Shown: positions 603 to 25,916 of the stretch, piece by piece | Layout of the letters: the number at the start of each line of letters is the position of its first letter | How positions within the stretch are numbered: position 1 is the first letter of the stretch | Source: a virus | IMG/VR virus record: IMGVR_UViG_3300042402_000803 | Coordinates: 1 to 25,916 of that record | DNA: 25,916 bases | Strand: one strand, 5' to 3' | Made by a program: the position numbers and the translations under genes | The notes under the pieces: model-generated | The model's database searches: none | Seen by the model: only the letters and a program-made list of their open reading frames with translations | Told to the model about the DNA's origin: nothing

Positions 603-2018
603 TTATTTTTTGAGCGAATTTAATAGGGCCTTGAGTTTTGCACTTCCTACATCAGCGACCACTTTCTTAGTTTCAGGCTGAATTTCGCCTGTGTTTGGAT
701 CTACAGTTTCTGAAACTACTGTACTCTGAGTTTTAAGCCTATTCATTAGATCATTGGGACTAGGTTGCGGAGCTTTGTAAGTATTTGCGTCAGGATTAGG
801 ATCCGTAATTCTTAATGTTTCTACATTAAATTCCAACTCAATCTTTTGTCCCACACCCGAACTACTACGGGTTTTCATTAACTGTAATTGATACTGTCCA
901 CGCTCACGCATAGACCTAGAAGTAAAGATACCGAACACATTATCTGCTGTGTTAATCTTTGAAATACCACCTGAGATATGACTATGATCAAATTCAATTT
1001 CTTCTACAGCACTACGGTTCAACTGACTTGCTGTGACAAATAATACATTTAATTCTTTAGCCAAGTTACGCAACTCTTCCGATACATATTTGTCTTTCAC
1101 AAACAAGTCTGAAGGACTGACCTTTGCGCTGACAGGCATGAGCAAGTCCAAATAGTCTACACACAAAAAGTCAAGTCTCAAACCTGTTTGAATTTGAAGT
1201 TCTTTACAATATGCTCTTAAATCATTTACTGTACTTTGAGCAGGCATATATTTGATTCGCAAGCCACCTGCTTTCTTTTGTAGCATCTTGACCTTCATTT
1301 CAACATTGTCAATGTCTTTGAAGATTTCACGGCTGCTTGTATCTGTCATCATACTATCAATACGCATACTACACAAGCCCTCACTAAGTTCTAGTGTTAC
1401 ATACACACCGTTTAATCCTGCTTGTGCCCAGTTAACTGCTAAATTCTGCATGAACAAACTCTTGCCTGATCCTGAGCCACCTGCAAAAATTTGAAGTTCA
1501 CCGCGATTGAAACCACCATATAATTTCTGATCCATACTAGGCCAGCCAGTGCTATTCTGTCCATTGTTAGATTTCAATGCCATCAATCGTGCTCTAGGAT
1601 CAGCAAAGTAATCTGTACCCATATCTTTCTGTAGACTAATCTGCACGGCGTCTTTGATTAGTTTTTCTACAGGACCATACTCACCCTTTTCAAGTAAGTC
1701 TGCTGATTTAAGAATCGCTCTTTCAAGTTCTTGTCGTTTAGTGAATTGTTCAAATTCATCTAGAAACCACTGATAGTGCCCATCATCAAGTTCTGAAATG
1801 TTTTCAACTTCAACTCCTGTTGATGCCTTTACCTGCGCAGGGTCGGGCATAATGTTATATTTTTTGCTATGCTCTACTAAAAATTCTGCTACAGGTTTTA
1901 ATTTGCGGTCAAAATTACTTGGGTTCATGATATTCATGACCCGTGTATACAGTTCTGCGTTTGTAACCATCATACGCAAAAACAACAACTGCATATCACT
2001 ATTATATTCTGTGCTCAA
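603..2018 (-). CDS. 41: Replicative DNA helicase, DnaB/gp41 family
   Basis: A 471-residue RecA-fold hexameric helicase that unwinds duplex DNA ahead of the phage polymerase and pairs with primase in the primosome. The N-terminal helical domain (about 1-140) is followed by the DnaB C-terminal ATPase. Visible motifs are Walker A GGSGSGKS (180-187), H1a-like VTLELSEG (207-214), Walker B FLCVDYL (284-290) and the H3 region VTASQLNRS (328-336). The length is close to T4 gp41 (475). The start codon is TTG at 2018, chosen because AGGAG lies five bases upstream; the next ATG would remove eight residues. The gene overlaps the end of the primase gene by 17 bases, so translation of the two primosome partners is probably coupled. 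Confidence 0.95.
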   Translation of the reverse strand: MSTEYNSDMQLLFLRMMVTNAELYTRVMNIMNPSNFDRKLKPVAEFLVEHSKKYNIMPDPAQVKASTGVEVENISELDDGHYQWFLDEFEQFTKRQELERAILKSADLLEKGEYGPVEKLIKDAVQISLQKDMGTDYFADPRARLMALKSNNGQNSTGWPSMDQKLYGGFNRGELQIFAGGSGSGKSLFMQNLAVNWAQAGLNGVYVTLELSEGLCSMRIDSMMTDTSSREIFKDIDNVEMKVKMLQKKAGGLRIKYMPAQSTVNDLRAYCKELQIQTGLRLDFLCVDYLDLLMPVSAKVSPSDLFVKDKYVSEELRNLAKELNVLFVTASQLNRSAVEEIEFDHSHISGGISKINTADNVFGIFTSRSMRERGQYQLQLMKTRSSSGVGQKIELEFNVETLRITDPNPDANTYKAPQPSPNDLMNRLKTQSTVVSETVDPNTGEIQPETKKVVADVGSAKLKALLNSLKK

Positions 2019-2976
2019 GTTTTCTCCTCTGTATTTCTATTTTGACTTTACTTGTAGTTGCACTCTGTAAGATACTTAGTAATGTAGGGAGTTTACCATA
2101 TTTTACTACTGCATCGTTTACATCTTTTACATCATTGTCCCAATTTGGTATACTAACACTATATCCTAATTCTAATGCTTTATCACAAGTACTAAGCCCT
2201 GTCTTATCACGATCTGGTACAAAGATAATTTTTCTATTGAGTTGGCTCAATAACTCAACTTGGTCATCATTAATTGTGTTATGAGTTAACGCACAACCAT
2301 TGATACTTAATGCGTCAAAAATACCTTCTACCAATATACAAACTTCATATTCAGGTTTTTGAAAATCAATACCAAACACATATCCTTGCTGTTGCTCATT
2401 GATGTATTTAGGTGTCTTGTTGTCTAAGAAGCGACTGGTGTGACCTACAATTTTATTTTGATAGGTATATGGAATGATTATTCTATTGCCTTGGCGACCA
2501 CTTTCATTTGGTGTAATCATGAACGGGTAGTCACTAACATTTATACCCCGTGCCTGCACATAATCCACATATACTTTGTGTAATGGATTGTTTACATCAA
2601 GTAATTCACCTTCGGGAAGAGTATGTTCTTTAAACTTGATTTTCTTTTTATTCTTTTTAACTTGTACATAAGACAATAAATCTTTATGCTGTAAACTTTC
2701 AAGGCTCCAGCGTTGGATTTGCTGTTCGTCTATGCCAGACCACATCAATAATTGTTTTGTATTTTTGGTTATGCTTTTTCCCAACATGAATCCACACTTG
2801 AACCCACAGTTGAAACAATGCATACTCCAATTATCACCGTCCATTCTGATTCCGCCGCGACTGCGTTTATCGGGTTTGTGACCACGATTATGGCAACACA
2901 CTGCGTTGAAACTATGCCAACCGCTTTGTGTGAGTTTTTTCTTACCCGGAATAACAGACAGGATATCAAACATCAT
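2002..2976 (-). CDS. 61: DNA primase, gp61-like
   Basis: A 324-residue primase that makes RNA primers for lagging-strand synthesis. The N-terminal zinc-binding region has Cys27/Cys28, His29/His33, and C54-x2-C57. The Toprim catalytic core shows LVEGIFDAL (215-223, Glu217) and IFVPDRDKTG (251-260, with the Asp255/Asp257 pair). The length is similar to T4 gp61 (342). It starts at tandem ATGs (2976/2973) with no obvious Shine-Dalgarno sequence. It lies directly upstream of, and overlaps, the helicase gene, which fits primosome co-expression. Confidence 0.92.
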   Translation of the reverse strand: MMFDILSVIPGKKKLTQSGWHSFNAVCCHNRGHKPDKRSRGGIRMDGDNWSMHCFNCGFKCGFMLGKSITKNTKQLLMWSGIDEQQIQRWSLESLQHKDLLSYVQVKKNKKKIKFKEHTLPEGELLDVNNPLHKVYVDYVQARGINVSDYPFMITPNESGRQGNRIIIPYTYQNKIVGHTSRFLDNKTPKYINEQQQGYVFGIDFQKPEYEVCILVEGIFDALSINGCALTHNTINDDQVELLSQLNRKIIFVPDRDKTGLSTCDKALELGYSVSIPNWDNDVKDVNDAVVKYGKLPTLLSILQSATTSKVKIEIQRRKLEHRI

Positions 2977-3886: not shown

Positions 3887-4267
3887 ATGGCTTTAAACGA
3901 TTTTTTTAAGAAGTTGAGCGAAAATCATCCCTTTATAACGGTTTGCTCATACGCTAATCAAGACTATGTAGGAATAGTGCAAAACAGGGATGATACAGTC
4001 ACCACAATATATGATTACGGAGCCATTGTTGATCAGGAAATCAAGAGTAAATTCTTAGAACTAGGTGATATTTGGTGGTGGGAAAGCAATAGACTTATAC
4101 CTATAAATCTATTTTTGAAAGATGAATGGAGTATTTTTAAGCCCTATCTAAGAACTTTTAATAATAAAAGTTTAGTAATTTTACACGGGCCCACATGTAG
4201 TATGAATGAACTTCACAAACGCCGTAGTAAGAGGCGTAGTATCACGCTAGTCAAGCGTATTTCCTAA
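3887..4267 (+). CDS. Conserved phage protein, the only plus-strand gene
   Basis: A 126-residue protein with a WWWESNR-IPINLFLKDEW core (about 62-81) and a basic tail (HKRRSKRR, about 109-116). From memory it resembles a conserved uncharacterised protein of marine T4-like phages; I know no function. It is the sole gene on this strand, and its end overlaps the tail of the DnaE-like gene by 21 bases. No Shine-Dalgarno sequence is visible before the ATG. TATAAT at 3876-3881 lies five bases upstream of the ATG without a good -35 box, so a very short leader is possible. Confidence 0.7.
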   Translation: MALNDFFKKLSENHPFITVCSYANQDYVGIVQNRDDTVTTIYDYGAIVDQEIKSKFLELGDIWWWESNRLIPINLFLKDEWSIFKPYLRTFNNKSLVILHGPTCSMNELHKRRSKRRSITLVKRIS

Positions 4268-4831
4268 TTCTACTAATAAATTCATATGTACTGCTACTAG
4301 CCACGCATACCCAACCGCGTGTGCTTTCTTAAACTGATATCCGTCAGTGCCACGATCCCATATTGTTTTTGCTACTTCAATCCAGGGTAGTCCAATCAGA
4401 TGCTTTTTTCCCGGGCGAATCAATGCTAGAAACATAGCAAGTCTAGGAATACTATTGACTGGTTCGGGCATCTTAGTTAGTGACGGATAATGATTTCCAA
4501 TATGAATTAGTTTTTCTACAAAGAACGGATCATTCAATTTCTTCCAGTCAGGATCCCGCATAAGTTCTATCAAATGCTTTTCATCACGGACATGCTTATA
4601 AACATGTACATTCAATAAATCCAACTTAAAATAACCCCTCTTTTCTGCGTCTGAATAGTCAATAGCTGCCATATCATTTACAGGATCGTAGGGTATTTCT
4701 GTAATATGAACTCCAGTAGCATGCTTGCGAATAGGATTTACCTTTAGCATAGCTGAAGGGATATGTTTTATATGTTGCAGTAATGTACTTCTATCTGCTA
4801 AGTCAATGTCTACATCAGTATCAATTTTCAT
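4247..4831 (-). CDS. Miniature DnaE-like (DNA polymerase III alpha palm/finger) protein
   Basis: A 194-residue protein that reads like a condensed DnaE (C-family polymerase) core, normally ~1,100 residues. Collinear matches are: DVDIDLADR (6-14) to the catalytic P-D-F-D-x-D-F motif; HATGVHI (37-43) to DnaE HAAGVVI; GYFKLDLLNV (66-75) to L-x-K-x-D-F-L-G-L, which holds the third catalytic Asp; IPRLAMFLALIRPG (128-141) to the AxALYRPGP motif; and FKKAHAVGY (167-175) to FNKSHAxAY. The PHP exonuclease, thumb, beta-binding and OB domains are absent. The start overlaps the MarC stop as ATGA. Whether it polymerises, only binds nucleotide/DNA, or is a remnant is unknown. The family call is inferred by eye from motif order. 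Confidence 0.7.
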   Translation of the reverse strand: MKIDTDVDIDLADRSTLLQHIKHIPSAMLKVNPIRKHATGVHITEIPYDPVNDMAAIDYSDAEKRGYFKLDLLNVHVYKHVRDEKHLIELMRDPDWKKLNDPFFVEKLIHIGNHYPSLTKMPEPVNSIPRLAMFLALIRPGKKHLIGLPWIEVAKTIWDRGTDGYQFKKAHAVGYAWLVAVHMNLLVELGNTLD

Positions 4832-5418
4832 AATTGTATTGTTTTTATGCCACGCAATAACATTTCAACGCTAACTGCTACCAATATAAGACCCATTAAT
4901 CTTTCCATAGCAATTAAAAATCTATTACCCAATAGATGTTGTATTCTATCACCTATTAATAAAGCAATCATACTTATGGTAATACCTACTCCCATCGCTG
5001 CCACCCATACCCAAAACTCATCGGGTTGCTGACTAACTAATAACATCACAGTAGCTAACGCACTAGGTCCTGCAATCAATGGTATTGCCAATGGCACTAT
5101 AAATGGTTCATGGTCCAATATTTCTTCTTCAACATTAGAATCATTAGGAAATACCATTTTTATAGCAATAAGAAATAAAATAACTGCGCCTGCTAATTGG
5201 AGACTAGCATTACTTAATCCCAATGCACTTAAAAAGTGCTGACCCACAATCATAAAAAGAAATAGAATACCGAAAGCAATAAAATGCTCACGCACGATAA
5301 TCCAACTTCTTTTTTCTACGCTATACTTTTTTAGTGTACTACTAAAGATGGGAAAATTTCCAAACGGATCAAATATAAGTATCAGTAGCATCAATGCTGA
5401 AACAAATGTGTAGGTCAT
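4828..5418 (-). CDS. MarC-family integral membrane protein
   Basis: A 196-residue, strongly hydrophobic protein with about six membrane segments. The N-terminal FDPFGNFPIF (16-25) matches the MarC/UPF0056 signature DPxGxxPxF. Also visible are LAGAVILFLIAIKM (75-88) and PLAIPLIAGPSAL (108-120), a conserved pore-like Pro/Gly motif of the family. Its length is normal for the family, so the protein appears intact. MarC proteins are bacterial inner-membrane proteins of unsettled function; the old link to multiple antibiotic resistance was not upheld. The gene overlaps both neighbours by ATGA, so it is co-translated with the exonuclease and the DnaE-like gene. It is probably host-derived. Confidence 0.9.
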   Translation of the reverse strand: MTYTFVSALMLLILIFDPFGNFPIFSSTLKKYSVEKRSWIIVREHFIAFGILFLFMIVGQHFLSALGLSNASLQLAGAVILFLIAIKMVFPNDSNVEEEILDHEPFIVPLAIPLIAGPSALATVMLLVSQQPDEFWVWVAAMGVGITISMIALLIGDRIQHLLGNRFLIAMERLMGLILVAVSVEMLLRGIKTIQL

Positions 5419-5972
5419 GACATAAAACCTGCCTTCATTAATTTCATGTAAGCCTGTTGTACAACAATTGCCTGTCGTTCAGCATCTTCTACTGCTTTGT
5501 GACTAGTCTTGTGTCCACCATCTTTTAATTTTACTCCGGCAATCTCATACAATGTTCTAGTATCACGAACAGTATAGAAAGGCCAGGGTATAGGATTAGG
5601 ATAATCAGTTAATGTTTGACGCATGCCTGTTTCGCATGCGACCACATCAAATGCCGCTCCGTTACTCCAAACTGCTCTACGATTCCAACAAAACTTATAA
5701 AGTTGTTCCATACATTCTTTAAATGAAATACGATCCCTATCTCCCAATGCTTCTTCCATTGCTTCAGGACTTTGTGTACTCCACCAACGCAATGTATCTT
5801 CGTTGATAACTCTGTTGTGTATTTCTGTCTGATCCTCAATTGTAGGACGCAACTCTAACCGTTCTATAACACCTTGACCCTTAGGATCAAATCTCACAGC
5901 CCCGATGGTAAGTATAACACAATAAGGGCTTGTGTCAAGCGTCTCCAGATCAACCATTATATCATTTGCCAT
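5415..5972 (-). CDS. dexA: DexA-like 3'-5' exonuclease (DEDDh)
   Basis: A 185-residue DnaQ/RNase T-fold exonuclease. Metal-binding residues are visible in order: D8 and E10 in MVDLETL, D109 in NGAAFDVV, and H158/D163 in SHKAVEDAERQ. This gives the DEDDh subtype. T4 DexA (about 227 residues) is the likely counterpart, and similar proteins are common in marine T4-like phages. It probably degrades or trims single-stranded DNA ends in nucleotide recycling or repair. The ATG at 5972 shares a base with the upstream stop (TAATG), and its own stop overlaps MarC as ATGA. Confidence 0.85.
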   Translation of the reverse strand: MANDIMVDLETLDTSPYCVILTIGAVRFDPKGQGVIERLELRPTIEDQTEIHNRVINEDTLRWWSTQSPEAMEEALGDRDRISFKECMEQLYKFCWNRRAVWSNGAAFDVVACETGMRQTLTDYPNPIPWPFYTVRDTRTLYEIAGVKLKDGGHKTSHKAVEDAERQAIVVQQAYMKLMKAGFMS

Positions 5973-6253
5973 TACTGAAACTTTAATAGAAATAGTAAAT
6001 ATTTTTTCTCGTCCATAATCTTGTAACCATCAGTAATGTTACCATTGACCATGTTCATCTTTACACCATAATTATTTTCTAGATAATCTTCAAATTCGTA
6101 GGCATCAAATTGATTACTTGATGTATCCAAGATACTCATATATTCTTGCCGAACTTGTTTTAATGCTGCCCAGTAATCCCAGCGTTTTTTCCGTTGATCG
6201 TTCAACGGGTCATCTTCATCATAGTCTTGAAAACTTTTAGGGATGCTAGCCAT
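5972..6253 (-). CDS. Small acidic protein, possible member of the short F-x-L family
   Basis: A 93-residue acidic protein with no recognised domain. Its C-terminus (MDEKKYLLFLLKF, about 80-92) resembles the C-termini of the small proteins encoded at 6949-8194: acidic residues, an aromatic, then F-x-L-[KR]-[WF]. It could therefore be a separated member of that set. It overlaps the oxygenase gene by 8 bases and the exonuclease start by one base. Function unknown. Confidence 0.7.
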   Translation of the reverse strand: MASIPKSFQDYDEDDPLNDQRKKRWDYWAALKQVRQEYMSILDTSSNQFDAYEFEDYLENNYGVKMNMVNGNITDGYKIMDEKKYLLFLLKFQ

Positions 6254-6947
6254 TACTTTGCCAAATATTATCTAGACTTCTTACATCTTCAATGATACTA
6301 CTGTCAAGATAATTAAGCAAGAGAGCTGGGCGATTTTGTTTAGTAGGATTGGGCATACTAGAATGCAATACCCTAGAGTTATATAGCAACACACTACCTT
6401 TTGGTAAAGAGGGCTGAATAGAATTCGCTTTAAAGAATCCGTCGTACATTCCCTGATAACAAAAATCTATATTGTAATTTACCATTTGACTTTTAGGAAC
6501 TATACCTGTAGCTCCATTAGTTTTATCTAAGTCATATAAGGAAACTATAGCTTGTATGCCTAAAAAGTTTTTGTTAAAGTTATATTTTTTAAATCTATGC
6601 GGAGTATCAACATGGGGATTGATCCAAGTAGATCCTGCGTTTATAGTTACAATGTCGCTAGCATACCATTCTGCTTTAGGCAGATGCATATTAACTGTGG
6701 GGTTTATTAATTGTTCTATTTGTATAACTTCGGGCCAATCCATAACAAATTGGCTCCACCAAACACTTACATTAGGTAATTTTTCAATCTCATTACGCTC
6801 GGCATACTTTTTGTTACTAGAACTAGCACGAACTGGATACAGTAATTCTTTTTTAGCCAAGATACTATCAATCAATTCATCTGGTATTATTTTTTCAAGG
6901 ATAAGGTAGCCGTTGCCTGTGGTAAGCTGGTGTTTAACTACATTCAT
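6246..6947 (-). CDS. 2-oxoglutarate/Fe(II)-dependent dioxygenase (PhyH-like)
   Basis: A 233-residue double-stranded beta-helix oxygenase. The iron ligands read as H112-x-D114 (NPHVDTPHRF) and H195 (NSRVLHSSMPN). R206 (KQNRPALLLNYL) is placed to bind 2-oxoglutarate. GATGIVPKSQ (145-154) is the usual PhyH-type turn before the distal histidine. Such oxygenases are frequent in marine and cyanophage genomes, with substrates mostly unknown. The gene starts one base after the stop of the upstream small protein and overlaps the following gene by 8 bases. Substrate and timing cannot be inferred. Confidence 0.85.
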   Translation of the reverse strand: MNVVKHQLTTGNGYLILEKIIPDELIDSILAKKELLYPVRASSSNKKYAERNEIEKLPNVSVWWSQFVMDWPEVIQIEQLINPTVNMHLPKAEWYASDIVTINAGSTWINPHVDTPHRFKKYNFNKNFLGIQAIVSLYDLDKTNGATGIVPKSQMVNYNIDFCYQGMYDGFFKANSIQPSLPKGSVLLYNSRVLHSSMPNPTKQNRPALLLNYLDSSIIEDVRSLDNIWQSNG

Positions 6948-12540: not shown

Positions 12541-13563
12541 TCAGCCCTTCATGCACGTGGCACGTGCCAGATTCTGCCAATTGGTCGGGCTAATCTTAAC
12601 CAAATCAGCAATCTTCAAAGTCATACGCAAGGACACTTCACGCAACTTGTTGTGATTGTCCCACATGAAATTCAGAATCGTTTCCTCTTGTTCCTTGTCA
12701 AACCCATAGTCAACGAACAACCCGGGGTCAGCATCACGATGGACTTGCTTGATACGGAGCATCTTATCACGCTCGGTGTTGATAGTCAGGTCCAAGAAGT
12801 GACTGCGAGACTGGAGAGCATCCAAGTGCGGCTGAATCTTAGTGGCTCGCTTGTTATCAAAGGTCTTGTTAGTGATAAAAATGATAGAACCATGGAAGTC
12901 AAAAGTGTTGGGGACACCTTCTTCACGCAACAGTCGGCTATCCTTGTTGTAAGAGATACGACGGGTCTTGCCTGAATCCAAAGCACCCTTGAGAATATTC
13001 ACAGCATCCTGATCTTCCCAAATGTCGCAATCGTCAAAGACCAATACATTCTTGCGATCCGAATACTTGTACAACAGAGCAAACAATCCGATAGCGGACA
13101 TAGTACCCTTGACAATTTCAAAACGCAACTTGCGGCCTACAACCTGATCAAACAGGCTAGCCTTTTCCATTTGCGTAGTGACGCCGAAACTCTTACCGAC
13201 ACCGGGGGGGCCAGTCACAATCATAGCACGGATATCACCTGAGATACATGCCTTAGACATTTCATCAAGGACTGCAAAACGCTCCTTGATGCGGTCCATA
13301 GCCTGCTCATCAGTCTCGGTAACAACCTCAGCAGGAGCCTCGGACACTTGACTGACAACCGAAGAGCCGTTCAGAAATTCAATAGCCTGCATATTGTCAA
13401 CCTTGATTTTAATCTCATCACTGTAGCCGGGAAACTGGCCGTCATTCTTGACAGTAACATAGTTACCTTTCTTGCCGGTTTGAAAACCCTTGACAAGGGT
13501 AAAAACCTCGTTACGAACGGTTTGATTGCGATACGAACCAGAGAGAATGCGAATCGTTGACAT
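12541..13563 (-). CDS. AAA+ ATPase, early gene of unknown target
   Basis: A 340-residue AAA+ protein. The first ~65 residues form a beta-rich domain (VFTLVKGFQTGKKGNYVTV), followed by an acidic linker. The ATPase has Walker A GPPGVGKS (118-125), Walker B VLVFDDCD (173-180), a sensor-1-like IIFITN (227-232) and a possible arginine-finger region RSH near 253. The C-terminal helical lid has KLREVSLRM. It resembles MoxR/RuvB-size AAA+ proteins found in T4-like environmental phages with no assigned function. The start is firm: AGGAG six bases upstream, and a perfect sigma70 promoter (13597-13625). It is monocistronic and ended by a terminator. Base composition appears less AT-rich than in flanking replication genes. 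Confidence 0.88.
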   Translation of the reverse strand: MSTIRILSGSYRNQTVRNEVFTLVKGFQTGKKGNYVTVKNDGQFPGYSDEIKIKVDNMQAIEFLNGSSVVSQVSEAPAEVVTETDEQAMDRIKERFAVLDEMSKACISGDIRAMIVTGPPGVGKSFGVTTQMEKASLFDQVVGRKLRFEIVKGTMSAIGLFALLYKYSDRKNVLVFDDCDIWEDQDAVNILKGALDSGKTRRISYNKDSRLLREEGVPNTFDFHGSIIFITNKTFDNKRATKIQPHLDALQSRSHFLDLTINTERDKMLRIKQVHRDADPGLFVDYGFDKEQEETILNFMWDNHNKLREVSLRMTLKIADLVKISPTNWQNLARATCMKG

Positions 13564-19503: not shown

Positions 19504-19749
19504 TCACCATTCTTCATCTTCGTCGTCGTAATCTTCTTCGTATTCTTCTTCTAATTCATGTTCACTGACATAATCTTTGAGTGCGTTCAAAATTTCTTTT
19601 TCACCACGGAAAGATTCTTTGATTTCATCTGCTTCATAATTGTTGTCAATTAAAAAGCTAACCAATGTGTCAGCGGCATCTTTTCTTTCAGAGATATCAA
19701 TATGACCTCTTAATGCATCCCATACTTCTGCTACAAAATCTAAACTCAT
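19504..19749 (-). CDS. Small acidic phage protein (81 aa)
   Basis: An 81-residue protein with an Asp/Glu-dominated C-terminus (about 65-80: EEEYEEDYDDEDEEW). The N-terminal domain is helical (VAEVWDALRGHID; ADTLVSFLIDNNYEADEIKESF). Similar acidic proteins appear between uvsX and uvsY-type genes in marine T4-like phages, as far as I recall. It might mimic DNA or bind a replication protein, which is speculation. Its ATG overlaps the stop of the GIY-YIG gene as ATGA, so in this phage its translation is linked to the inserted endonuclease. Confidence 0.75.
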   Translation of the reverse strand: MSLDFVAEVWDALRGHIDISERKDAADTLVSFLIDNNYEADEIKESFRGEKEILNALKDYVSEHELEEEYEEDYDDEDEEW

Positions 19750-20495
19750 TCTGTAATGTTCTCCTCTGTTGATACATTACTTATCTTTGAATTATATTTT
19801 TCAACAAACCATCCTTTACATGAACCGCGGGCTGGTATCTTTTTATTTCTCATAATCTTTTCCATAGTAGGCACACTTAAATTGTGTAGGTTACAAAAAT
19901 TATAAAACCCCTCAGCTATATATTCAACTGAATCGGGTGAAATAAATCTATAGGTTTTTATATTGTTTTTGTTACCCTTCATTCTTTCTGAATGTTTCTT
20001 TTTGTTTTCGTCTGTGTGGTGCTTGTTATAAAACCCGTTCTTCTCACCTGTGACACCTAACCCAATTTTCTTTTTTGTTTCTGCTGTCATGGGTTTTCTG
20101 CCATTTTCTAATAGAGTATTTTTATAACTTTCTATTCTTTTTTCTAAATGAGCAGGTGCTTGCTTTTTACCTTTATGAGAAGGGGGTCGTTTATCTAAAC
20201 AAATGTTGGTCAATATACCGCCTTCATCAATATTTTCTCTCCCGTATTTTTTAATATAAGATGCCTCAATCTCATATGCGACATTTTCATCAATAATATT
20301 GTCAGTCAAAATACTTATAGGTATCTCGTATCCCTGTTCTCGTAAATATTGAATCTTAAAGAACTTATGACGATTATCAGTATTGTCAATAGTTTCCTTG
20401 AAGTGATCCAAATGTCTTTGATTTTCAGTTTTACCTTTACCTATATAAAAAGGAAGGTTGGTTCTATTATCTATTAGGGCGTATATGTAATACAT
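19746..20495 (-). CDS. GIY-YIG homing endonuclease, free-standing
   Basis: A 249-residue protein when started at ATG 20495, preferred because GGAG lies six bases upstream; an ATG at 20507 would add four residues. YYIYAL (2-7) and FYIGKGK (16-22) form the GIY-YIG signature, followed by an Arg/His segment, E75/E77 and TNIC. The middle carries NUMOD3-like DNA-binding repeats (GKKQAPAHLEK; TAETKKKIGLG; HTDENKKKHSERMKG). The C-terminal part, with a helix-turn-helix (SVPTMEKIMRNKK) and GSCKGWFVEKY, matches related homing enzymes. It sits between uvsX and the acidic gene without an intron. Its start is covered by the hairpin described at 20493-20532. Confidence 0.9.
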   Translation of the reverse strand: MYYIYALIDNRTNLPFYIGKGKTENQRHLDHFKETIDNTDNRHKFFKIQYLREQGYEIPISILTDNIIDENVAYEIEASYIKKYGRENIDEGGILTNICLDKRPPSHKGKKQAPAHLEKRIESYKNTLLENGRKPMTAETKKKIGLGVTGEKNGFYNKHHTDENKKKHSERMKGNKNNIKTYRFISPDSVEYIAEGFYNFCNLHNLSVPTMEKIMRNKKIPARGSCKGWFVEKYNSKISNVSTEENITE

Positions 20496-20532
20496 AGCAG
20501 TCTCCATAATATTATTTATGCTAACTGCTATG
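20493..20532 (-). promoter_or_regulatory. Start-codon hairpin with internal late-promoter-like box
   Basis: Perfect 9-bp inverted repeat: CATAGCAGT and ACTGCTATG around a 22-base loop on the minus strand. The 3' arm contains the endonuclease start codon, and GGAG lies in the loop next to it. The loop also holds CATAAATA (20513-20520), 7 of 8 matches to the T4 late promoter. Read-through mRNA from uvsX would fold and mask the start, while a late transcript would begin inside the loop and escape the fold. Confidence 0.6.
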
Positions 20533-23222: not shown

Positions 23223-25916
23223 TTAAAACTGTATAACTGGTGATGTGGGCGGTGTGAAGTTAGCTGTATAACGGGCTACACCGTTTGTTACTCGTAAGTC
23301 ATCTATGTAGCCGTTGAATTCAGTGAAATAACTTTCTCCCCCGTACCCTACATAGAGTGGTTGAGTGGTAAATGTAATATTTGTGCTATTTGACCCAGTG
23401 CCGGATGCCACCCCGTTTATATACCAAGTCCAAGTGCTTCCGTTACGCACAAACGCAAGGTGAGTCCAGGTATTTGCAGTGATCGCACTAGTGGCTGTTG
23501 TGTAAATATCCGAACCGCCTGTCAATCCGTTATAATGAATACTGGGTGTCCCTGCATTAAGGTGCATCACAAATTTGGGCACACCACCAGGTCCGCCACT
23601 TAGTGCATAAAAACCGCGTATTCCGGCAATGCTACTTGGGTATAACCAGGCTTCAAAAGTAAAACTTCCAGTACCTAAATTATTATTTACTGAGAATGGT
23701 GAGACCAAGTAATCGCCAGTGCCATCAAACGACATACTGCTATTACCGTATTTCTTGATTACTCCAGTGGTACTAGCATTGCCCAGTGTTTCGTAAGTGG
23801 CCATCATGGCACTGTCGTAAATGGCTGCACTGGTACCGTTAGCCAATATCAGGGTGTTTTGTATAGGCTGTAATGGTGCCACTGGTGGTGCAAAAGACGC
23901 AGTATAAAGAACTGTGCCTCTAATGTATCTTAGATTAGATATGTATCCAGTCCAAAACTTTGCAGGATTTAAAGTGCTACCAATATAAAAATTTTGAGTT
24001 GTTTGATCATAATAAGTTCCTGTAGCGGAACTGCCAGACGCAACGCCATTTATATAGTAACTGATAGTATTATCAGACCTAGTTACAACAACGTGGTTCC
24101 ATTGATTTATGCGTACAACAGAAGAACCCGAAGATGTTCCAACGGATGCTCCGTCTCCATTATTATCTGACTGTACAGTTCCATTGGTGTTAACCATGAG
24201 ACTTAATCCTCTGGAATTGCCGTTAAATGTACCAAAAAACGCACTTTGGGCTGCTAGACTGGTTGGATATAACCAAACCTCTATAGTCCAATTACCATTG
24301 GTAAGATTAAGTACTGGTGATAAAACACTAACTAAGTAATCCCCAGTACCATCAAAATACATGCTGCCACCGTAATTTGCCACACTGTAAGTAGCATTGC
24401 TACCAGTGGTACTAGTCCAGCCAAATGGGTTGAATTGAGTGGGCTGGCTGTTACCAAAGACGGTTATGGCGAAGTTGTTGGTGCTATTATCAACGAATGT
24501 GGCGTTTTGGCATGTTAGTAGACTTGTACCTGACACTGCGGTTAGTGGTGCAGTTGGGGGCGTGAATGCTGCTGTGTAAACTGCTGTGCCTTTGACCAAA
24601 CGCACATTGGATATGTATCCTGTACATACACCTGTTACACTTCCGTTGAAAAATTCAGCTCCTATATACGTTGTTCCCGAAAATGTAGCCGATGAAGTCC
24701 AAGTACCCAGTGAAGCTCCGTTTAAATAGAGAGTCACTGTTGTTCCTGCCCGAACCACAGCAACATGTGACCAAGTTCCAACTGCAGGTAATGTTGCACT
24801 ACTGATACGGTTAGCTCCATTGGAATACACTATTAGTGCAGATCCTGTACTACCTATATAAACTTCAATCCCCGTAGAAGTAAAAGAATCTCCAAGAGTA
24901 AAGAAAAAGTTGTTGCCGCTTGCAGAACGGTAAACCCAAAACTCAATAGTAAAGTCTGCATTTAGTGTAGTGGCAGCATTATTTGGCGCTGTCAAATAAT
25001 CCCCAGTGCCATCAAAGTAACCACTATAACTTGTGGGAGTAGTCAACACTGGGTTGAAGGGGTTGAAGCGTTGTACGCTAACATCACCGTTTCTTGTTAT
25101 AGTAAAGTTGTTACCACTGTCATCTATGAATCTATTATCAGCACAAGTTAGTAGGCTGGTGTTAGCGATTGGTGTGAGAGGTGCTGTGGGTGGCGTGAAC
25201 GCTGCGGTATATACTGCTGTACCTCTTACTATGCGTAAATTTGAAATATAACCATTGTATCCAGTATTTTGCACCGAACCTAAATTTAAGGTAGAACCCG
25301 AGGGCCCCTGTGGGGTACCAGATTTTGATACTGAAAATGCTTGAACCCCGTTAATGTAACCCTTAAGGGTGGAATTTGAATTAGTGTAAACCATGGCAAC
25401 ATGAGTCCAGGTGTTCAAAGCAACAGTAGAAGTACTGACTGCGTTAGTTACTCCAGCACCATTATAGTAATAAAAATATAAGTTACCCGATGAATTTGTA
25501 CCAAAACTCCAGTATGTATCTGCACTAGTTGGTAAACCATATGCAACTTGTAATGGCAAACTATTAGTAGCACTCTGGGCGTTTACTCTATTGAAAATCC
25601 ACATTTCAATAGTGTAATCTGTGTCCCACCACTGGACTGTAGATGCACTGTAAGGCATTGTTAAATAATCTCCAGTGCCATCAAAATAATTGCTCCAGCC
25701 ACCACCATAGGGCGTAAAACTGCCCTGTGTTGTATTACCATTTCTAGTAATTAAAAAGTTACTGGCACTACTATCCAAAAACATATTATTGTTGTTGGGC
25801 TGATTGTTTTGTAGTGTTAGTAGTTGTGTGTTTGCAACTGCGGTTAATGGTGCTGTGGGCACAGTTATAGTGGTTTGCGTAGGGTTATATACTGCTGTGC
25901 CCTTTACAAATCTTAC
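23223..25916 (-). CDS. Multi-repeat LamG (ConA-like lectin) virion protein, partial
   Basis: At least 897 residues; the frame remains open to the right edge. A GTG at 25862 is not a true start, because the coding pattern (VKGTAVYNPT) continues upstream of it. Four LamG-like jelly-roll units recur every ~209-223 residues. Each contains YFDGTGDYL, then T-x-E-x-W, then WTHVA / WNHVVV, then Y-I-N-G-x-A/V, then GYISNLR-x-x-[RK]-G-T-A-V-Y-T, and between them P-P-T-A-P-L-T linkers. LamG units bind glycans, and such large beta-repeat proteins in phages are usually tail-fibre or capsid adhesins for host attachment. The C-terminus here is short after the last unit (PPTSPVIQF), so this is the distal end of the protein. 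Confidence 0.92.
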   Translation of the reverse strand, partial: VRFVKGTAVYNPTQTTITVPTAPLTAVANTQLLTLQNNQPNNNNMFLDSSASNFLITRNGNTTQGSFTPYGGGWSNYFDGTGDYLTMPYSASTVQWWDTDYTIEMWIFNRVNAQSATNSLPLQVAYGLPTSADTYWSFGTNSSGNLYFYYYNGAGVTNAVSTSTVALNTWTHVAMVYTNSNSTLKGYINGVQAFSVSKSGTPQGPSGSTLNLGSVQNTGYNGYISNLRIVRGTAVYTAAFTPPTAPLTPIANTSLLTCADNRFIDDSGNNFTITRNGDVSVQRFNPFNPVLTTPTSYSGYFDGTGDYLTAPNNAATTLNADFTIEFWVYRSASGNNFFFTLGDSFTSTGIEVYIGSTGSALIVYSNGANRISSATLPAVGTWSHVAVVRAGTTVTLYLNGASLGTWTSSATFSGTTYIGAEFFNGSVTGVCTGYISNVRLVKGTAVYTAAFTPPTAPLTAVSGTSLLTCQNATFVDNSTNNFAITVFGNSQPTQFNPFGWTSTTGSNATYSVANYGGSMYFDGTGDYLVSVLSPVLNLTNGNWTIEVWLYPTSLAAQSAFFGTFNGNSRGLSLMVNTNGTVQSDNNGDGASVGTSSGSSVVRINQWNHVVVTRSDNTISYYINGVASGSSATGTYYDQTTQNFYIGSTLNPAKFWTGYISNLRYIRGTVLYTASFAPPVAPLQPIQNTLILANGTSAAIYDSAMMATYETLGNASTTGVIKKYGNSSMSFDGTGDYLVSPFSVNNNLGTGSFTFEAWLYPSSIAGIRGFYALSGGPGGVPKFVMHLNAGTPSIHYNGLTGGSDIYTTATSAITANTWTHLAFVRNGSTWTWYINGVASGTGSNSTNITFTTQPLYVGYGGESYFTEFNGYIDDLRVTNGVARYTANFTPPTSPVIQF
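23722..25916 (-). repeat. Tandem LamG repeat units
   Basis: The segment coding FDGTGDYL recurs at 23722, 24349, 25009 and 25678 (first base of the shared CCATCAAA on the plus strand), spacings of 627, 660 and 669 bp. A fifth unit is entered at the right edge (VRFVKGTAVY). The repeats are also similar at DNA level, especially the P-P-T-A-P-L linkers, which suggests recent duplication. Confidence 0.9.

Follow-up and report, generated by a model that had tools for sequence, protein, structure and literature searches.

A 194-aa open reading frame (ORF) in a 25,916-nt stretch of viral DNA (hereafter the window) carries motifs of the bacterial replicase DnaE at one-sixth of its length, which raises the question of whether so short a protein is a polymerase by itself or something else. 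Our analysis points to the C-terminal half (C-half) of a split polymerase, whose N-terminal half (N-half) is predicted to be encoded elsewhere in the genome, rather than to a stand-alone minimal polymerase. The ORF starts with the ATG at 4831, overlapping the stop codon of the preceding gene (Table 1). All five DnaE motifs that the original prediction had read in it (DxDxD, HxxG, KxD, RP and YxFxKxH) are present and stand in the order in which bacterial DnaE carries them. Aligning the ORF with E. coli K-12 DnaE, with the numbering checked on the K-12 sequence, matched T5-D6-V-D8-I-D10 with P400-D401-F-D403-V-D405 and K69-L-D71 with K553-F-D555, so that the assignment of Asp6, Asp8 and Asp71 to D401, D403 and D555, made from the letters of the DNA, was correct; D10 corresponds to D405 besides. 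D401, D403 and D555 are metal ligands kept across the whole C family, and D405 is found in the DnaE groups and not in PolC, where Asn stands (PMC3919608). D10 was found in 137/137 homologues, indicating that the DnaE-type residue is present.

Table 1. Features of the DnaE-like gene and its neighbours (window positions; residue counterparts in E. coli DnaE numbering)
Feature	Position	Strand	Basis
Predicted C-terminal half of split minimal DNA polymerase III alpha (PHROG 11778), 194 aa	4247..4831	-	profile, model, conservation
D6-V-D8-I-D10, counterpart of D401/D403/D405 (metal ligands D401, D403)	4802..4816	-	alignment
H37-A-T-G40, counterpart of HAGG motif (H511)	4712..4723	-	alignment, profile-profile
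K69-L-D71, counterpart of K553 and D555 (third metal ligand)	4619..4627	-	alignment
R139-P-G-K142, counterpart of RPG motif (R639); K142 invariant	4406..4417	-	alignment
Y165-Q-F-K-K-A-H171, counterpart of YGFNKSH, fingers (H760)	4319..4339	-	alignment
Rv2179c-like 3'-5' exonuclease (PF16473), usual upstream neighbour	5415..5972	-	
MarC/YhgN-type membrane protein (PF01914, E 1.3e-47), between exonuclease and DnaE-like gene	4828..5418	-	
Convergent 126-aa gene, phrog_11637, unknown function	3887..4267	+	
DNA primase, conserved neighbour downstream	2002..2976	-	
DnaB-like replicative helicase (T4 gp41 type), conserved neighbour downstream	603..2018	-	

The 194-aa ORF is a real C-family (DnaE) homologue that covers the palm/finger region and keeps the catalytic Asp triad. 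PHROG 11778, annotated 'DNA polymerase', matched its residues 2-188 in a profile search (E 2.4e-55), and profile-profile comparison with ten C-family polymerases gave a probability of 97% (E 1.9e-11), thus bearing out the family assignment of the original prediction. Searching Pfam, NCBIfam and PDB sequences with the ORF as a single sequence returned nothing relevant, so that the similarity to DnaE is visible only by profiles or structure; a PDB profile search gave nothing beyond a sub-threshold match to Pol III (5lew, E 0.72). The AlphaFold2 model of the ORF (mean pLDDT 92.9, pTM 0.83) has the expected Pol III-like fold, with D6 at the edge of strand 7-11 and D71 inside strand 69-74. Its 13 best PDB fold matches were all Pol III alpha chains, including those of Taq, M. 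tuberculosis and E. coli; the best of them had a probability of 1.00, but an E value of 2.6e-3 and a TM-score of 0.43 by query length. Homologues were numerous: tblastn found 90 isolate-phage records with a C-half, each covering at least 80% of the query and, among the matches listed, belonging to jumbo phages (RaK2-like, PA5oct/MIJ3-like, Atu_ph07, Phosso and others) or being shorter records, probably partial ones of jumbo phages, and IMG/VR added at least 130 more stretches. Twenty columns were invariant when 45 diverse members, the most distant of them ~40% identical, were aligned, and D6, D8, D10, H37, G40, K69, D71, R139, P140, K142, W158, H171 and N184 never varied in 137/137 homologues, the three catalytic Asp of the original prediction among them.

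Unlike bacterial DnaE, whose Pol III alpha fold it shares, the ORF is without PHP, GRGS, OB, HhH and tau-binding parts, and its thumb and fingers carry large deletions. In comparison to E. coli DnaE, ~79 residues are gone between D405 and H511 (thumb region) and ~89 between R639 and H760 (fingers). Q687/E688 and R709 fall in the second gap; none of the ten C-family polymerases of the DnaE set varies at these positions. The F609-Q610 pair, likewise invariant in that set, is also not conserved in the C-half family. The R709 region of DnaE presumably contacts the incoming nucleotide. The GRGS segment of DnaE polymerases lies just ahead of the DxDxD strand and contributes to nucleotide binding; this segment was absent from the ORF and from the whole window, and in relatives the frames upstream of the C-half allow at most 43 residues of extension. 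The PHP and (HhH)2 domains, which are near universal among bacterial C-family enzymes (PMC3919608), were both absent from the 194-aa ORF, which has no room for them because the DnaE palm/finger match fills nearly all of it.

Searching 18 related records with PF07733, we found a second small protein in 10/10 records of at least 287 kb, matching PF07733 only at positions ~16-98. This N-half family (PHROG 11127) is 168-174 aa long in the window's clade, carries the GRGSS nucleotide-binding motif and ends with a sequence such as GVGRGSSVASFVLFLIGIHRINSLYYDLSIDEFLK-stop. The alignment of the N-half profile with DnaE stops at residue ~392 (E. coli L392; E 1.4e-7) and the C-half starts at about DnaE P400, indicating that the halves are complementary and do not overlap. 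The distance from GRGS to the stop was 33-35 residues in 101/101 N-half frames, and no fused N+C protein was found among the 158 C-halves and 101 N-halves of all loci fetched. Because the N-half ends at ~392, the C-half resumes at ~400 and no frame carries both, the chain is split in the short linker that joins FERFLN to PDFDVDF, locating the break to DnaE residues ~393-399. Modelled alone, the N-half reached a pLDDT of ~55-70 in its DnaE-like end and had no PDB match, so it is by its sequence that we identify it. The papers on phages CBB and Atu_ph07 had noted a small Pol III alpha-like protein (PMC5259590, PMC6102473), which we identify here as the N-half, and in a marine survey PF07733 was noted for one jumbo-phage group, about half of which had it (PMC9123017).

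A six-frame search of the 25.9-kb window with the N-half's own profile found no N-half, and the distances in relatives are large. In 13/13 contigs of the window's clade both halves share a strand, with the N-half 39.7-48.8 kb downstream (in one contig after wrapping the contig end), and the 56-kb contig of a 73%-identical C-half homologue also carries an N-half. For this phage we predict an N-half on the strand of the C-half, 40-49 kb past the window's left end. Other lineages have the halves 30-308 kb apart, never as adjacent genes. Both halves were present in 22/23 near-complete records tested, the 22 being at least 267 kb long. The exception, a 349-kb contig (G014), carries the N-half and not the C-half, and contig truncation explains the loss: the contig extends 42 kb past its N-half in the direction in which a C-half would be expected 40-49 kb off, and the conserved convergent neighbour gene is gone as well. 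Counted by host genus, isolate phages with C-half/N-half numbered 34/34 for Escherichia, 11/11 for Pseudomonas, 8/8 for Salmonella, 8/8 for Erwinia, 3/3 for Xanthomonas and 11/10 for Klebsiella, two of the Klebsiella C-half records being short. Further N-half matches in Bacteroides, Cellulophaga, Bacillus and Enterococcus are probably full-length polymerases. A family B polymerase was encoded in 10/10 near-complete related records tested; the window, being a fragment, does not show one. Two C-half contigs of 335 and 153 kb (L265 and L272) had been binned into a Neomarinimicrobiota MAG and are likely misbinned jumbo phage.

Both halves sit in replication modules, as the C-half adjoins the primase and DnaB-like helicase genes, upstream of which it lies, and the N-half is found near the clamp loader (a few genes away in CBB, Atu_ph07, Ettore and SCTP-2; in Phosso, the gene eight places downstream of the N-half encodes an AAA-ATPase). 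T4-type genes in the window comprise helicase, primase, UvsW, UvsX, UvsY and a gp32-like gene. The best-conserved neighbour, at 83/86 loci, is the convergent 126-aa gene, which overlaps the DnaE-like gene tail to tail by 21 bp. On the other side the order is exonuclease, MarC-like gene and DnaE-like ORF, with an overlap of 4 bases at both junctions. That the exonuclease gene stands two genes upstream, as originally noted, holds literally in the window, but the MarC-like gene between them is a rare insertion, present at 3/86 related loci and probably unrelated cargo. The exonuclease itself is found nearby upstream of the C-half in 65/86 loci and shows no BLASTP similarity to the annotated Pol III epsilon of phage CBB; it might serve the DnaE-like protein as a proofreader. 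A PhyH-type dioxygenase-like gene (6246-6947, minus strand; PF05721, E 8e-10) occurs in 17/86 related loci.

From homology, catalytic-residue conservation, the split point, co-occurrence and location in replication modules we infer association of the two chains, catalysis and a division of labour with the family B polymerase. In the reading that we favour, and consider reasonably probable, the two halves rebuild one C-family active site, giving jumbo phages with a T4-like replisome a second polymerase beside their family B enzyme. The Asp triad that binds metal would come from the C-half, together with part of the fingers, and the GRGSS segment, a nucleotide contact in DnaE, from the N-half; the two chains would associate into one palm active site, and the rebuilt enzyme would add nucleotides at the fork. 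As PHP, OB and C-terminal regions are missing, processivity and proofreading would have to come from other proteins, which makes short synthesis (primer extension, gap filling or repair) likelier than bulk replication, a task that the family B enzyme could perform. More specifically, but only tentatively, we propose from the sequences that the two chains of ~170-195 aa together make up a working DNA polymerase. It would be the smallest C-family core known and would do without both PHP and the RRxMGKK finger segment, serving next to the family B polymerase as a second replicase with a task of its own, such as primer extension or lagging-strand synthesis. The strongest caution on polymerase activity is the missing finger segment with its normally invariant residues. 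We found no biochemical assay of the split polymerase in the literature, most subscription papers lying outside our search.

The loss of that segment, with R709 and Q687/E688, and the presence of a full family B polymerase that could do all synthesis would fit a DnaE-like complex of both halves which no longer polymerises and instead binds nucleotide or primer-template as a structural or regulatory subunit of the replisome. We think this unlikely, since the three metal ligands and K69, H37, R139 and H171 are invariant in 137/137 homologues, and a non-catalytic scaffold could be expected to have given up some of these residues. A decoy or modulator that takes the place of DnaE at a replisome protein of either host or phage (host Pol III, clamp or tau), along the lines of the decoy raised in the original prediction, appears very improbable: apart from the DnaE similarity nothing was found in favour of a decoy for the host polymerase, nor anything in favour of the stand-alone nucleotide-binding regulator raised with it. 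The ORF has neither PHP nor OB nor the C-terminal part by which DnaE binds tau and the clamp, and the hosts of its carriers are very diverse; a decoy would have no need of the catalytic Asp, and we set this reading aside as accounting for neither the complementary, co-occurring partner nor the retained triad. The C-half fold is predicted with high confidence by itself, as a stand-alone minimal polymerase or nucleotidyltransferase would have it, yet such an enzyme is at least as hard to credit, for the ORF is without the GRGS that is present in every C-family polymerase aligned and in 101/101 N-halves. The new minimal form that the original prediction had envisaged thus gives way to a pair, in which this segment comes from another phage protein whose gene is tens of kb distant, and the split was published in 2021. 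That the gene is what is left of a formerly complete, now decaying phage dnaE, as the small size and the two large deletions might suggest, is the least credible reading of all, given intact frames throughout, conserved gene order and 20 residues invariant over homologues down to ~40% identity.

Comparing sequences, Iyer et al. (2021) described a phage-specific Pol III alpha that group 2.2 jumbo phages encode in two parts, and suggested a possible cooperation with the family B enzyme (PMC7824862). The protein of the window belongs to the same family (C-half, PHROG 11778; N-half, PHROG 11127). As in the group 2.2 system, near-complete relatives have the halves in distant genes and a family B polymerase besides, and T4-type replisome genes are seen in the window itself. 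To that description we add a new metagenomic clade member, the position of the break at DnaE residues ~393-399, and a partner consistently 40-49 kb downstream on the same strand within the clade. The split itself is not new, and because Iyer et al. had already described it, the window contributes one more member and a sharper anatomy. Single-chain DnaE of other phages (phrog_405; the phage members of the C-family set) is also a phage-encoded C-family polymerase, but unlike the split form it keeps every motif in a single long chain; the one of subgroup 3.2 jumbo phages is likely a host-derived replacement (PMC7824862). The T4 gp43-type family B polymerase is a replicative polymerase in genomes of the same phages, additional to the split Pol III alpha and unrelated to it in fold and family. 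If active, the pair would define the minimum of the bacterial replicase needed for catalysis, with a palm active site built from two chains encoded tens of kb apart, in a virus running bacterial-type and archaeal/eukaryotic-type polymerases together. The break point and gene contexts given here ease direct testing of the 2021 sequence observation.

Other genes on the minus strand of the window include a conserved P-loop/AAA protein of unknown function (12541-13563; phrog_1250, E 4.6e-90) in the recombination-replication cluster, a GIY-YIG/NUMOD3 homing-endonuclease-like gene (19746-20507) between the UvsX- and UvsY-like genes, and an 879-aa protein with four laminin-G/ConA-like lectin domains (23223-25862; PF13385), probably a structural or adhesion protein. 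GAP32 and several Erwinia phages have the C-half gene annotated as 'putative membrane protein'. In Atu_ph07 the annotated start of the C-half gene (gp074; NC_042013.1; L083:8001-8576) lies 27 codons downstream of the homologous start, so that the deposited gp074 protein is without DxDxD.
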